The position numbers were made by a program, and so were the translations under genes. Below, piece by piece: positions 36,943 through 45,905 of a stretch of DNA of 64,000 nucleotides (position 1 is its first letter; each line of letters starts with the position of its first letter). Source of the stretch: Actinobacteria bacterium HGW-Actinobacteria-2. Its GTDB lineage: Bacteria > Actinomycetota > Actinomycetes > Propionibacteriales > Propionibacteriaceae. Location of the stretch: positions 152,755 to 216,754 of the forward strand of contig PHEY01000009.1 in NCBI GenBank assembly GCA_002841335.1, read 5' to 3'. The notes under the pieces were generated by a model. It did not search any database. It had not been told where the DNA came from and saw nothing but the letters and a program-made list of their open reading frames with translations.

Positions 36943-37719
36943 TCAGATCCAGCCGCTGTAGGGCCGCTGCGCCACCGCCGAATGAAGCCAGCGGATCAGT
37001 GTGGTGAAGTCGAACACGGGCAGCCCCACGGCAGCCTGGATCGCGGCCGCGTACGGCGGCAGGTCGCTGCATTCCAGCAGCACCGCGCCCACCTGCGGAT
37101 CGGCGCACAGCTGCCGCGCCAAGGTGATCGCTTCGGCCTGGACGGCTTCGTTGTCGAAGCTGCCCCGGCCGGTCAGGATCGCGGAGAACTCCGGGGCGTC
37201 CTGCAATCCGCCCACGACCAGGTCGGACGCATCAGCGACCCCGCAAGCCGCCAGCAGGTCAGCGCTGAGCGAGGTGGCATCGGCGGTCAGTACGGCGATC
37301 TTGCGCCCAGGCAGGATCGTCCGGATCCAGGGCAGTTGGACCAGCGAGGACAGCGCCGTCGGCACGCTCAGTTGCGGCGCCACGGTGGCGTGATAGCGGC
37401 CGAAGAACCCACAGGCCGAACTGATCGCCCGCACGCCTTCGGCCTCCAGCTCGCGGCAGGCGGCCAGCACCTGCTCGGTGACGTCGGCGGCGTCCGGCCC
37501 GAACAGGGTGTCGATGTCGAGCCCGCGCACCGGCTTCAGGCGTACCGGAAAGTCGAAGGTGGCGGCGTTGACCACATTGCCGGGCACCATCGGGTACCAG
37601 ACGTCCTCGATGTAGATCACGCCGACCGGGTAGCCGGCCACCGCCTGCCCCGGCCCCATCTGTACCCGTCCGATGGGCGCCCCGGCGGCCAGGTAGCCGT
37701 ACGGACGCGCCGGGCTCAC
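36943..37719 (-). CDS. Asp/Glu racemase-superfamily protein (AroM/maleate-isomerase-like)
   Basis: 258 residues from GTG 37719, which overlaps the upstream stop as GTGA. The two-cysteine acid-base pair of the superfamily is seen in ISSACGFFGRY and LLECSDLPPYA. The family racemises amino acids or isomerises/decarboxylates related acids. GVIYIEDVWYPMVPGNVVN is characteristic of the non-MurI branch. It is the last gene of the ten-gene cluster. It may invert a D/L centre of the imported substrate; exact reaction unknown. Confidence 0.75.
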   Translation of the reverse strand: MSPARPYGYLAAGAPIGRVQMGPGQAVAGYPVGVIYIEDVWYPMVPGNVVNAATFDFPVRLKPVRGLDIDTLFGPDAADVTEQVLAACRELEAEGVRAISSACGFFGRYHATVAPQLSVPTALSSLVQLPWIRTILPGRKIAVLTADATSLSADLLAACGVADASDLVVGGLQDAPEFSAILTGRGSFDNEAVQAEAITLARQLCADPQVGAVLLECSDLPPYAAAIQAAVGLPVFDFTTLIRWLHSAVAQRPYSGWI

Positions 37720-38966
37720 CGCCCCCACCGGAAACGCTTCGGCGACAGCATGGCGTACGCGGCCGGCGCAGTGCCTTCCATGAGCGAGCGCAGCACCTTC
37801 GCAGTCGACGGCGCATACGTGAGGCCGAGCATGGCGTGCCCAGTAGCCAGGTAGGCATTCCCCCAGCCGGGCACCAGCCCGACCACCGGAACCCCGTCGG
37901 CCGACATCGGACGCAGACCTGCCCACGCCGGCTGGGCGCCATCCAGCGGCACGCCGGGGTAGGTGGCCTTCACATCGTCGAGCAGCTTGGCTGCGGCCTT
38001 GGCGTTCACCGTCGGAGCCGGCTGACCGATGATCATGCCGCTGGAGGCGCGCAGCCCCCAGTCCAACGGCGTGACGGCGATGTGGGAGCCGTCGGTGAGC
38101 ACCGAGCAGCGCGGCTTGGCCGCCTCGTCGTCGAAGTGCACGTCGATGGAGTAACCGCCCCCGGAGTACACCGGGAGCGAGCAGCCGAGCTTGGCGGCCA
38201 GTCCCCGTGAAGCCACGCCCGCGGCGATCACCACCTGGTCGGCGTCGTAGACCCCGTTGGTGGTGGCAACCGCGGTCACCTCACCGGCCTCAGTGACGAA
38301 GTCGATCACCGTGGCGTGCTCGATCAGCTGCCCACCGCGGGCGGCGATCGCCTCGACCAGTGCCCGCATCAGCGACGCCGGCTCGACCTGCAGGTCGCCG
38401 GGAGCCAGGTAGCCGTAGCTCAGTTCGGGGGCGAGGTTCGGATCGACGGCGTGGACGGCCTCTGCCCCGTCCAGCACCGTGATCCTCGACTTGATCGAGG
38501 GAAAGTCATCGAAGACCGCCAGCCCGGCTTCGAACGATGCCCGGCTGTCGAAGACGTGCATCGAGCCGCCCTCGTGGCGCTCGAAGACCAGGCCGTCGGC
38601 AACGTACTCGGCGTAGTCGTCCAGCACCATCGTGGTGAGCAGGTCTTGTGCCACGGTGCCCAGGGCGAAGTTGGCCTTGGCCGTCGCCCAGGCCATCCGG
38701 GCCAGGAAGGTGAGGAAGCCGAGTTCCACGCGCGGGCGGACGGTGATGGCCTGGTCGCCGCTCAGGATCGAGCGTGCCGCCGTCCCGACCGTGCCGGGCG
38801 CCGGCACCGGGAAGGACAACACCCCGGTGACCAACGCGGCATTGCCCAGGGACGGCCCCTGGCCGTAGGTGTCGCGCTCCAGAACGGTGACCTCATGACC
38901 GGCCTTGAGCAGTTCGTAGGCGGTCGCCAGGCCGACGACACCGGCTCCGACGATGACCGTGCGCAT
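37716..38966 (-). CDS. FAD-dependent D-amino-acid dehydrogenase/oxidase, DadA-like
   Basis: 416 residues. VIVGAGVVGLATAYELLKAG is the FAD-binding loop. PSLGNAALVTGVLSFPVPAP resembles DadA's cofactor-adjacent segment, and the C-terminal GLRPMSADGVPVVGLVPGWGNAYLATGHAMLGLT is shown here only as SADGVPVVGLVPG. It would oxidise a D-amino acid or amine to an imine/keto acid. The next gene upstream, ridA, is joined by a TGATG overlap and could hydrolyse that imine. Confidence 0.88.
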   Translation of the reverse strand: MRTVIVGAGVVGLATAYELLKAGHEVTVLERDTYGQGPSLGNAALVTGVLSFPVPAPGTVGTAARSILSGDQAITVRPRVELGFLTFLARMAWATAKANFALGTVAQDLLTTMVLDDYAEYVADGLVFERHEGGSMHVFDSRASFEAGLAVFDDFPSIKSRITVLDGAEAVHAVDPNLAPELSYGYLAPGDLQVEPASLMRALVEAIAARGGQLIEHATVIDFVTEAGEVTAVATTNGVYDADQVVIAAGVASRGLAAKLGCSLPVYSGGGYSIDVHFDDEAAKPRCSVLTDGSHIAVTPLDWGLRASSGMIIGQPAPTVNAKAAAKLLDDVKATYPGVPLDGAQPAWAGLRPMSADGVPVVGLVPGWGNAYLATGHAMLGLTYAPSTAKVLRSLMEGTAPAAYAMLSPKRFRWGR

Positions 38967-39346
38967 CAGTGGGCCCCGCTGATCGCGGCAGTGACCAGCA
39001 TCTCGATCTTGTAGCCCGGCAGCGTCGCGCCGACGGTGGCCCGGGGCGGGAAGGGTGCGGGCACCAGCTCGGAGTAGACCTGGTTGAATCCGGCGTAGTC
39101 GGCCTCGATGTCCCCGAGGAACACCTGCACCTGCACCAGGTCGGCCAGGCTGGAGCCGGCCGCGTCCAGGATCTTTTCCAACAGCTCGAAGCTGTAGCGG
39201 GTCTGCTCCTCGATCGTGCTCCCGCGCACCTGGCCGGTCACCAGATCATGGGAGGTGATGCCGGAGGTGAACAACAGGTCACCGACCACCTTGCCGTGGC
39301 TGTAGGCCGCGACCGACTCCCCTACCGAAATGACTTTCACTGCCAT
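38966..39346 (-). CDS. RidA family enamine/imine deaminase
   Basis: 126 residues. Conserved parts are GKVVGDLLFTSGI and PFPPRATVGATLPGYKIEM with the substrate-binding Arg. RidA proteins hydrolyse reactive enamine/imine products of amino-acid metabolism to keto acids. It sits between the ABC ATPase (9 bp upstream) and the DadA-like gene (1-bp overlap). AGGACGAGACG precedes the ATG. A role in detoxifying the DadA-like product is inferred. Confidence 0.9.
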   Translation of the reverse strand: MAVKVISVGESVAAYSHGKVVGDLLFTSGITSHDLVTGQVRGSTIEEQTRYSFELLEKILDAAGSSLADLVQVQVFLGDIEADYAGFNQVYSELVPAPFPPRATVGATLPGYKIEMLVTAAISGAH

Positions 39347-44610: not shown

Positions 44611-44612
44611 GA

Positions 44613-45905
44613 TCAGCCAACCTCCTTGCTCGTGACTTCGCTCAGGGCAGTGGTGAGAATCTCCAGGCCCTCGTCCAACTCGGCGATCGTGGTGTTCAGC
44701 GGGGTCGCGAACCGCAGGCCGTTGCCCTTCACCCCGCACGACAAGGTGAACAACCCCTTGTCCAGGCAGGAACGTCGGACGGCCTCCAGCAGGTCGCCGC
44801 CGGGGCTTCCGTCGAGGTGGTTGAGCTCGATGGCCCGCATCAGCCCCAGGCCGCGGGAGTCGGTGATGATCGGGAACTGCTGCATCAGCGCGTCCAGCTT
44901 GTCGGACAGGTAGGCGCCGACGGTGTTCACATTGGTCAAGATGTCGGCCTCAGCGAACTCGTCCAGGACCGCCAGACCGGCCGCAGCCACCACCGGGTTA
45001 CCGCCGAAGGTGCCGCCGTGACGTCCGGGGCCCCAGGAGCTCATGATCGCCGGGGTGGAGACCACGCCCGAGGCAGGAAGGCCGCCGGCCATCGCCTTGC
45101 CGATGGTCATGATGTCGGGCACCACACCGAAGTTCTCGCTGGCGAAGAAGGTGCCCGTGCGACCGAAGCCAGCCTGGATCTCGTCGAAGATCAGCAGGAT
45201 GCCGTGCTGATCACACAACTCGCGCACCCGCTGGACGAAGCGCGTCGGCGGCACCACATAGCCACCCTCGCCCTGGATCGGTTCCATCAGGATCGCGGCC
45301 ACCGACTGCGGGGCGCGCTGGTAGGCGAACAGGTCCTCCAACTGACCCAGCGCGAAGTCGGTGAGTTCGTCGGCGGTGTAGCCGGCCGGAGCCTGACCGG
45401 CCGCGGGGTAGGTAGTGAAGTCGATGCCGCCGACCAGCGGGTCGTAGCCCAGCCGGTACTTGGCATTCGACGCGGTCACCGAGGTGGCGCCCAGCGTCCG
45501 TCCGTGGAAAGAACCCTTGAAGGCGATGATGCCGGGACGTCCGGTGTGCGCCCGGGCGAGTTTGATCGCGCCGTCCACGGCCTCGGCGCCGCCGTTGGAG
45601 AAGAAGGTCGTGCCCAGGTCACCGGGGGCCACTTCGGCGATCCGGCGAGCCCACTCCAGCGTGGGTTCGTAGGACACCATGTTGTAGGAGGCGGTGAGCA
45701 GCTTGTCGACCTGGGCCTTGATCGCCGCGACCACGCGCGGGTGCCGGTGGCCCAGGGCGTTGACCGCGATTCCCTGGACCCAGTCGAGGTAGCGGCGTCC
45801 GTCGGTGTCCCACAGGTAGGACCCCTCACCGCGATCGATCACCAGGTCCGTGGTCTTGGCCAAGGCCGGGCTGAGATAGGGCTTGTACGCGGCGAGGTCG
45901 ACCAT
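44613..45905 (-). CDS. Class III aminotransferase (GabT-like)
   Basis: 430 residues. FDEIQAGFGRTGTFFASENF and DIMTIGKAMAGGLPASGVV contain the PLP Asp and Lys of 4-aminobutyrate-type aminotransferases. GTTFFSNGGAEAVDGAIKLAR binds the PLP phosphate. It moves an amino group from a primary amine/omega-amino acid, or possibly ornithine/lysine, to a keto acid. It is the first gene of the cluster, preceded by AAGGAGTAGG, and divergent from the PucR-type gene. Confidence 0.92.
   Translation of the reverse strand: MVDLAAYKPYLSPALAKTTDLVIDRGEGSYLWDTDGRRYLDWVQGIAVNALGHRHPRVVAAIKAQVDKLLTASYNMVSYEPTLEWARRIAEVAPGDLGTTFFSNGGAEAVDGAIKLARAHTGRPGIIAFKGSFHGRTLGATSVTASNAKYRLGYDPLVGGIDFTTYPAAGQAPAGYTADELTDFALGQLEDLFAYQRAPQSVAAILMEPIQGEGGYVVPPTRFVQRVRELCDQHGILLIFDEIQAGFGRTGTFFASENFGVVPDIMTIGKAMAGGLPASGVVSTPAIMSSWGPGRHGGTFGGNPVVAAAGLAVLDEFAEADILTNVNTVGAYLSDKLDALMQQFPIITDSRGLGLMRAIELNHLDGSPGGDLLEAVRRSCLDKGLFTLSCGVKGNGLRFATPLNTTIAELDEGLEILTTALSEVTSKEVG

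Follow-up and report, generated by a model that had tools for sequence, protein, structure and literature searches.

Gene content and layout of the island

A stretch of 64,000 nucleotides from Actinobacteria bacterium HGW-Actinobacteria-2 (contig PHEY01000009.1, positions 152,755 to 216,754; host genome of 2.9 Mb in 14 contigs) was analysed and is referred to as the window. Positions 36943–45905 of the window carry, on the minus strand, an island of ten intact open reading frames (ORFs), all in the same direction from 45905 to 36943 and each of clear family, with the gene of a PucR-family regulator divergent from them (table 1). A preliminary description had proposed ten co-directional, overlapping catabolic genes divergent from PucR, which was borne out by the ORFs, their families and four overlaps of 1–4 bp; its 'two dehydrogenases' are one D-2-hydroxyacid dehydrogenase (HDH) and one zinc alcohol dehydrogenase (ADH).

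At the chosen starts, overlaps were found between HDH and ADH, perm1 and perm2, and DadA and Rac (4 bp each) and between Rid and DadA (1 bp), and gaps between AT3 and HDH (2 bp), ATPase and Rid (9 bp), perm2 and SBP (56 bp) and ADH and perm1 (110 bp). The SBP/ATPase gap is 81 bp and widens to 141 bp with an ATPase start at 40102. The ten genes are presumably transcribed as a single message. Within 36700–46200, terminator-like matches equalled the shuffled mean (4 vs 4.0) and a sigma-70-like promoter was lacking, and an Rfam scan of the window returned nothing except one tRNA.

Table 1. Features of the island and its flanking regulator (window coordinates).
Feature	Family and remarks	Position	Strand
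AT3	Class III aminotransferase, PF00202, PRK08117 subfamily; GABA-aminotransferase-like active site	44613..45905	-
HDH	D-isomer-specific 2-hydroxyacid dehydrogenase ('C-terminal binding protein' type), PF00389/PF02826	43612..44610	-
ADH	Zinc-dependent medium-chain alcohol dehydrogenase, PF08240/PF00107	42569..43615	-
perm1	Polar amino-acid ABC permease, BPD_transp_1	41823..42458	-
perm2	Polar amino-acid ABC permease, BPD_transp_1	41158..41826	-
SBP	Family 3 solute-binding protein, SBP_bac_3; lipobox present	40244..41101	-
ATPase	ATPase of polar amino-acid ABC importer; start uncertain (40201, 40162 or 40102)	39356..40162	-
Rid (RidA)	Rid-family protein, PF01042, predicted imine hydrolase; Tyr15, Arg102, Glu115	38966..39346	-
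DadA	DadA-like FAD-dependent amino-acid dehydrogenase, DAO domain PF01266	37716..38966	-
Rac	Asp/Glu/hydantoin-racemase superfamily, PF01177, NF005679/PRK07475; start GTG 37719 or 37728	36943..37719	-
PucR	PucR-family regulator, PF07905 + HTH_30	46053..47558	+
Intergenic region	AT3/PucR divergent intergenic region, possible operator	45906..46052	.

Conservation and distribution

Genome contigs were scanned with a 15-row profile of the racemase-family protein Rac, and the 78 loci surveyed are the best of 404 confirmed relatives; loci L001–L003, from the window's own genome, were excluded from co-occurrence counts. All 11 genes, PucR included, were found in identical order in four other Propionibacteriaceae genomes (L004, L005, L006 and L008), with gene-by-gene identities to the window of 42–90% (lowest for PucR). 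Because the same genes recur in the same order in all four, the island is not a chance assembly, and gene content and order mark it almost certainly as a real conserved unit. Its distribution is patchy, with Rac in 4 and HDH in 5 of 96 genomes of the window's relatives (own genome counted). Among genomes sampled by phylum or order, HDH was present in at least 2 of 396 at 1e-70 and in at least 1 of 398 and at least 2 of 396 at 1e-80 (centre genomes counted), these being lower bounds with at most five candidates scored per genome. Plasmids searched for HDH at 1e-60 gave no match.

Demequina (L010) has Rac, PucR, AT3, HDH, ADH, RidA and DadA; the permeases and SBP are unmatched there, and one ATPase match (40%) lies about 5 kb upstream of Rac. 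Orthologues of AT3, HDH and Rac are also present in Clostridia and in a spirochaete (L013). Among the window and 12 loci, identities between actinobacterial and clostridial proteins are 50–63% for AT3, 53–64% for HDH and 45–59% for Rac, and the pairwise identities of the three proteins correlate (r 0.67–0.86), partly through the genomes' shared ancestry; the comparison was made without the spirochaete, whose AT3 is cut by a contig end.

Three steps are taken by unrelated or remote enzymes in the Clostridia and the spirochaete: an iron-dependent ADH (Fe-ADH) stands for the zinc ADH, within 52 bp of AT3 in six clostridial loci; a multi-subunit flavin dehydrogenase of Fer2_4, Pyr_redox_2 and DAO subunits, beside Rac, stands for DadA; and a distant Rid protein (27–35% identity) stands for the window Rid. 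That these steps were swapped while AT3, HDH and Rac were kept across phyla argues, at the level of sequence, for one pathway comprising a racemase, an amino-acid dehydrogenase, imine hydrolysis and 2-oxo-acid reduction together with transamination and aldehyde reduction. Five AT3 loci seemed to be without HDH; HDH was found in all five genomes, in three of them on the AT3 contig at a distance of 6–7 kb. In the genome of the second HDH match obtained at 1e-70 (G380, HDH 42%), AT3, Rac and DadA were unmatched in the 18 kb examined.

Enzyme families and conserved residues

AT3 passes the cut-off of PRK08117 (613.9 vs 574) and fails that of the gamma-aminobutyrate (GABA) aminotransferase equivalog TIGR00700 (380.2 vs 506.65), though the GabT active-site residues, presumably with carboxylate and gate roles, are present. 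In HDH, an Arg, a Glu and a His, which we take to be catalytic, are conserved in 19 of 19 rows.

Rac scores above the curated cut-offs for NF005679/PRK07475 and has the racemase fold and the two active-site cysteines of its superfamily, Cys103 and Cys217 being unchanged throughout the 15 aligned rows. Its fold matches include allantoin and hydantoin racemases, OpaE, arylmalonate decarboxylase and maleate isomerase; a sequence search of the PDB gave a single match at chance level. Named close relatives come from Raineyella and Propionibacteriaceae metagenome-assembled genomes. The NF005679 entry says no more than 'hypothetical protein', and the names among 120 listed of 1385 homologues (E ≤ 0.001) are racemase-family, hypothetical or uncharacterised, and one 'Arylsulfatase'. 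It is plausible that the Rac clade forms a new racemase subfamily.

The best model for the DadA-like protein is PRK00711 (DadA), which it matches with 198.9 bits, short of the cut-off of 383. Within 10 kb of Rac, 55 of 78 loci carry a flavoenzyme of DadA or HcnC type, or 60 if any subunit is counted. Tyr15, Arg102 and Glu115 of Rid, the residues looked for in an imine hydrolase, are identical in all 24 rows aligned. Rid is present at 23 of the 78 Rac loci: in 16 of 17 with AT3, 18 of 19 with HDH and none of 20 with a gene of the dihydrodipicolinate synthase (DHDPS) family, the Rid gene of L054 (opposite strand, resembling archetypal RidA and probably unrelated) being kept in these counts. Since a linear imine would need to be hydrolysed and the cyclic imine of hydroxyproline breakdown is handled otherwise, loci of the AT3/HDH type likely oxidise a primary amine, to judge by their gene content.

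Arg121 and Asp198 of SBP are conserved in five of five rows; in relatives, the residues at these positions presumably contact the alpha-carboxylate and the alpha-amine of the ligand. For SBP, AT3, HDH, ADH and DadA, solved relatives gave families only and no substrate specificity. On the minus strand of the AT3/PucR intergenic region, the stretch TATCCAGACTGTAACTG is identical in L004 and looser in L005, L006 and L008, and was not seen in L010 or L095 (all by eye); it is a possible PucR operator, and PucR would be the regulator of the island. A riboswitch scan of 17 loci (L034 excluded) at the gathering threshold gave nothing beyond an FMN riboswitch in L017 and a tRNA in L022, both of them away from the cluster.

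Comparison with known systems

In the one open-access library searched, no paper on this gene set was found, and to that extent the earlier statement that no named pathway has this exact set holds. By the tests made on sequence, the island falls outside the dad, GABA, ectoine and hydroxyproline systems and appears most dad-like in its working. According to PMC9714295, the Pseudomonas dad locus for alanine catabolism (DadR, DadA, DadX, DadY) encodes the alanine racemase DadX, DadA, which oxidises D-alanine, and DadY, which removes the imine, and the front half of the island similarly brings together a racemase candidate, a DadA-like dehydrogenase and a predicted Rid imine deaminase. The island differs in that its racemase candidate is a PF01177 protein free of pyridoxal phosphate (PLP) rather than DadX, a PLP racemase domain being absent from the ten genes; in that its regulator is PucR and not of AsnC type; and in that it also includes AT3, HDH, ADH and an importer. 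Next to an enzyme that forms imines, a racemase free of PLP would make sense because alanine racemase and other PLP enzymes are inactivated by 2-aminoacrylate, a related reactive species, according to PMC4433059.

The clostridial relatives, with DAO, Fer2_4 and FAD/NAD subunits beside Rac, resemble the multi-subunit flavin D-hydroxyproline and opine dehydrogenases set out in PMC4575208. Of the two motifs taken from there, the gamma-type CX4CX2CX10-13C is present in 37 of 37 small subunits, and CXC-X15-20-C-X4-C in 0 of 48 loci, even with a looser pattern. Locus L034 has a BFD [2Fe-2S] domain by Pfam. The window differs in having a single-chain DadA-like enzyme.

In GABA catabolism, GabT works together with a dehydrogenase for the alcohol or semialdehyde, and the island resembles it in the GabT residues of AT3 and in the ADH that follows; AT3, however, falls under the TIGR00700 cut-off, and succinate-semialdehyde dehydrogenase is absent from the ten genes. 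Corynebacterial GABA genes are under PucR-type control. Ectoine loci contain the racemase-family protein EutA and the class III aminotransferase DoeD. For each of the four importer subunits of the island, models of the ectoine importer Ehu rank among the three best, but the scores lie below the Ehu cut-offs (e.g. 129.6 vs 205.2), and the ectoine hydrolase and deacetylase domains of the Eut/Doe route are absent from the ten genes. The L-hydroxyproline pathway differs by its DHDPS-type deaminase and proline-racemase-type epimerase, both absent from the ten genes.

Proposed route

The gene content is best explained, with a probability of about 0.4, by a dad-like racemise–oxidise–deaminate module coupled to a module for a second amino group in one catabolic route, of which we infer every reaction and the reaction order. 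The importer would take up an alpha-amino acid; Rac, as a PLP-free, two-cysteine protein of racemase fold, would likely invert it to the D-form; the DadA-like flavoenzyme would oxidise the D-amino acid to an imine; from this, Rid would release a 2-oxo acid by hydrolysis, and HDH would reduce the 2-oxo acid in turn. AT3, being GABA-aminotransferase-like, would likely remove a second, distal amino group, and ADH would reduce the remaining aldehyde or semialdehyde, whereby a diamino acid of the ornithine, lysine or diaminobutyrate type would lose both nitrogens and yield a dihydroxy acid. The feeding of a D-amino acid through racemase, dehydrogenase and Rid is probable. HDH fits a 2-oxo acid, the GABA-aminotransferase-type site of AT3 and ADH fit a distal amine and semialdehyde, and together they fit a diamino acid; this substrate is tentatively proposed, and is the weakest step because of the genome G1007, the L059 and L075 genomes without AT3 at the cut-off used and the 18 of 78 Rac loci without any dehydrogenase part within 10 kb.

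The full claim, that an unrecognised pathway of Actinobacteria, Clostridia and spirochaetes converts a diamino acid to a dihydroxy acid by way of a new PLP-free racemase family (PRK07475), a flavoenzyme with Rid and paired reductases, with ADH, dehydrogenase and Rid swapped between lineages and racemase, AT3 and HDH kept, is rather unlikely to be right in every part. If true, it would assign a function to a racemase-family clade with almost only generic names (as judged from the 120 names listed for 1385 homologues), add a route by which rumen and other bacteria of several phyla scavenge nitrogen, and provide a clean case of pathway logic outliving its enzymes. The earlier scheme, in which a compound is imported, inverted and oxidised to an imine, the imine is hydrolysed by Rid and reduction or transamination follows, stands in part: flavoenzyme and Rid co-occurrence and conserved catalytic residues favour it, but its front half has a known analogue in dad and its transamination/reduction half is separable.

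Evidence against the route and alternative explanations

Several observations weigh against the single route. The actinobacterial genome G1007 has PucR divergent from AT3-HDH-ADH and no match to Rac or DadA (the DadA query finds itself in its own genome), so the two halves are separable and need not share one molecule. In the genomes of L059 and L075, HDH, Rid, the dehydrogenase and Rac are all present, with AT3 absent at E ≤ 1e-100. Among the 78 Rac loci, 23 are without a DadA/HcnC gene within 10 kb, 11 of these on loci >15 kb; five of the 23 carry other dehydrogenase subunits and 18 show no part within that distance. The window Rid is not an archetypal RidA (TIGR00004, 72 vs 106.25 bits), and as RidA and Rid1 types were inactive on iminoarginine and Rid2 and Rid3 active in PMC5619798, its range does not follow from its family. 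By eye, the clostridial binding proteins do not share the stretch GDYYRTTSR/GCYYRTKER of SBP. Rac also occurs in other contexts, with DHDPS and aldehyde dehydrogenase (ALDH) or in alphaproteobacterial N-demethylation-like loci, and its neighbours thus do not fix its substrate. The co-occurrence loci are related and some truncated, so that p values overstate and counts were relied upon.

The separability of the halves would be accounted for by two independent modules sharing a regulator and importer, AT3-HDH-ADH acting on a GABA-like omega-amino acid or other amine and Rac-DadA-Rid on a neutral amino acid in dad-like fashion. G1007, the L059 and L075 genomes and the AT3 site are as expected on this explanation; the presence of both halves together in Propionibacteriaceae, Demequina, Clostridia and the spirochaete, with differing partner enzymes, and the correlated identities of AT3, HDH and Rac are not, and we consider it somewhat unlikely. 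That Rac works on a different intermediate as some other enzyme of its superfamily, be it a decarboxylase, a cis-trans isomerase or a racemase of hydantoin or allantoin, would suit the breadth of its fold matches and its uninformative names, but is improbable given the two invariant cysteines, the flavin amino-acid dehydrogenase close by in most Rac loci and the absence of a hydantoinase, carbamoylase or decarboxylation partner from the ten genes. Least probable is the degradation of a cyclic imino acid (proline, hydroxyproline or pipecolate type), with Rac as epimerase and the dehydrogenase forming a cyclic imine: Rac does stand with DAO, iron-sulfur/FAD subunits and DHDPS in Bacillaceae (there with ALDH) and other loci resembling the hydroxyproline pathway, a proline-racemase-family gene adjoins it in L039 and the clostridial dehydrogenase is of hydroxyproline/opine type, but the ten genes hold neither a DHDPS nor a proline-racemase domain, Rid avoids the DHDPS loci, and we know of no role for AT3 or HDH in the known hydroxyproline route.

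Other Rac loci and neighbouring genes

Nine Bacillaceae loci (L067, L071–L074, L076, L078, L079 and L081) have a hydroxyproline-like set of Rac, DAO, DHDPS, FAD-subunit and ALDH genes. Rac sits there in the place expected of an epimerase and may have taken over from hydroxyproline epimerase in Bacillaceae; PF05544 is over its cut-off in five of the nine genomes and not in the other four, which speaks neither for nor against this. On Pseudosulfitobacter and Rhizobium plasmids (L088, L089), Rac relatives of 43–45% identity lie near an amino-acid importer, a large FAD oxidoreductase, genes of electron-transfer-flavoprotein type and purU, a neighbourhood that suggests N-methyl amino-acid breakdown. 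L062 carries a tandem pair of Rac genes (7425–9047), which may point to a pair of related substrates or to a heteromeric enzyme. Another recurrent small gene (cluster 15, median 215 aa), by eye of a cytidylate-kinase-like family, is present in L029, L039, L050, L059, L063, L064, L070, L075 and L077, often beside Rac or HDH.

Elsewhere in the window, an ORF of 1603 codons (57880–62691) had no NCBIfam match at E ≤ 1e-60. Convergent with Rac lies a fused glutamate-synthase-beta/FAD-NAD reductase (33896–36874; PRK12779, 1535 bits vs 1519), the layout of which is presumably NfnAB-like.

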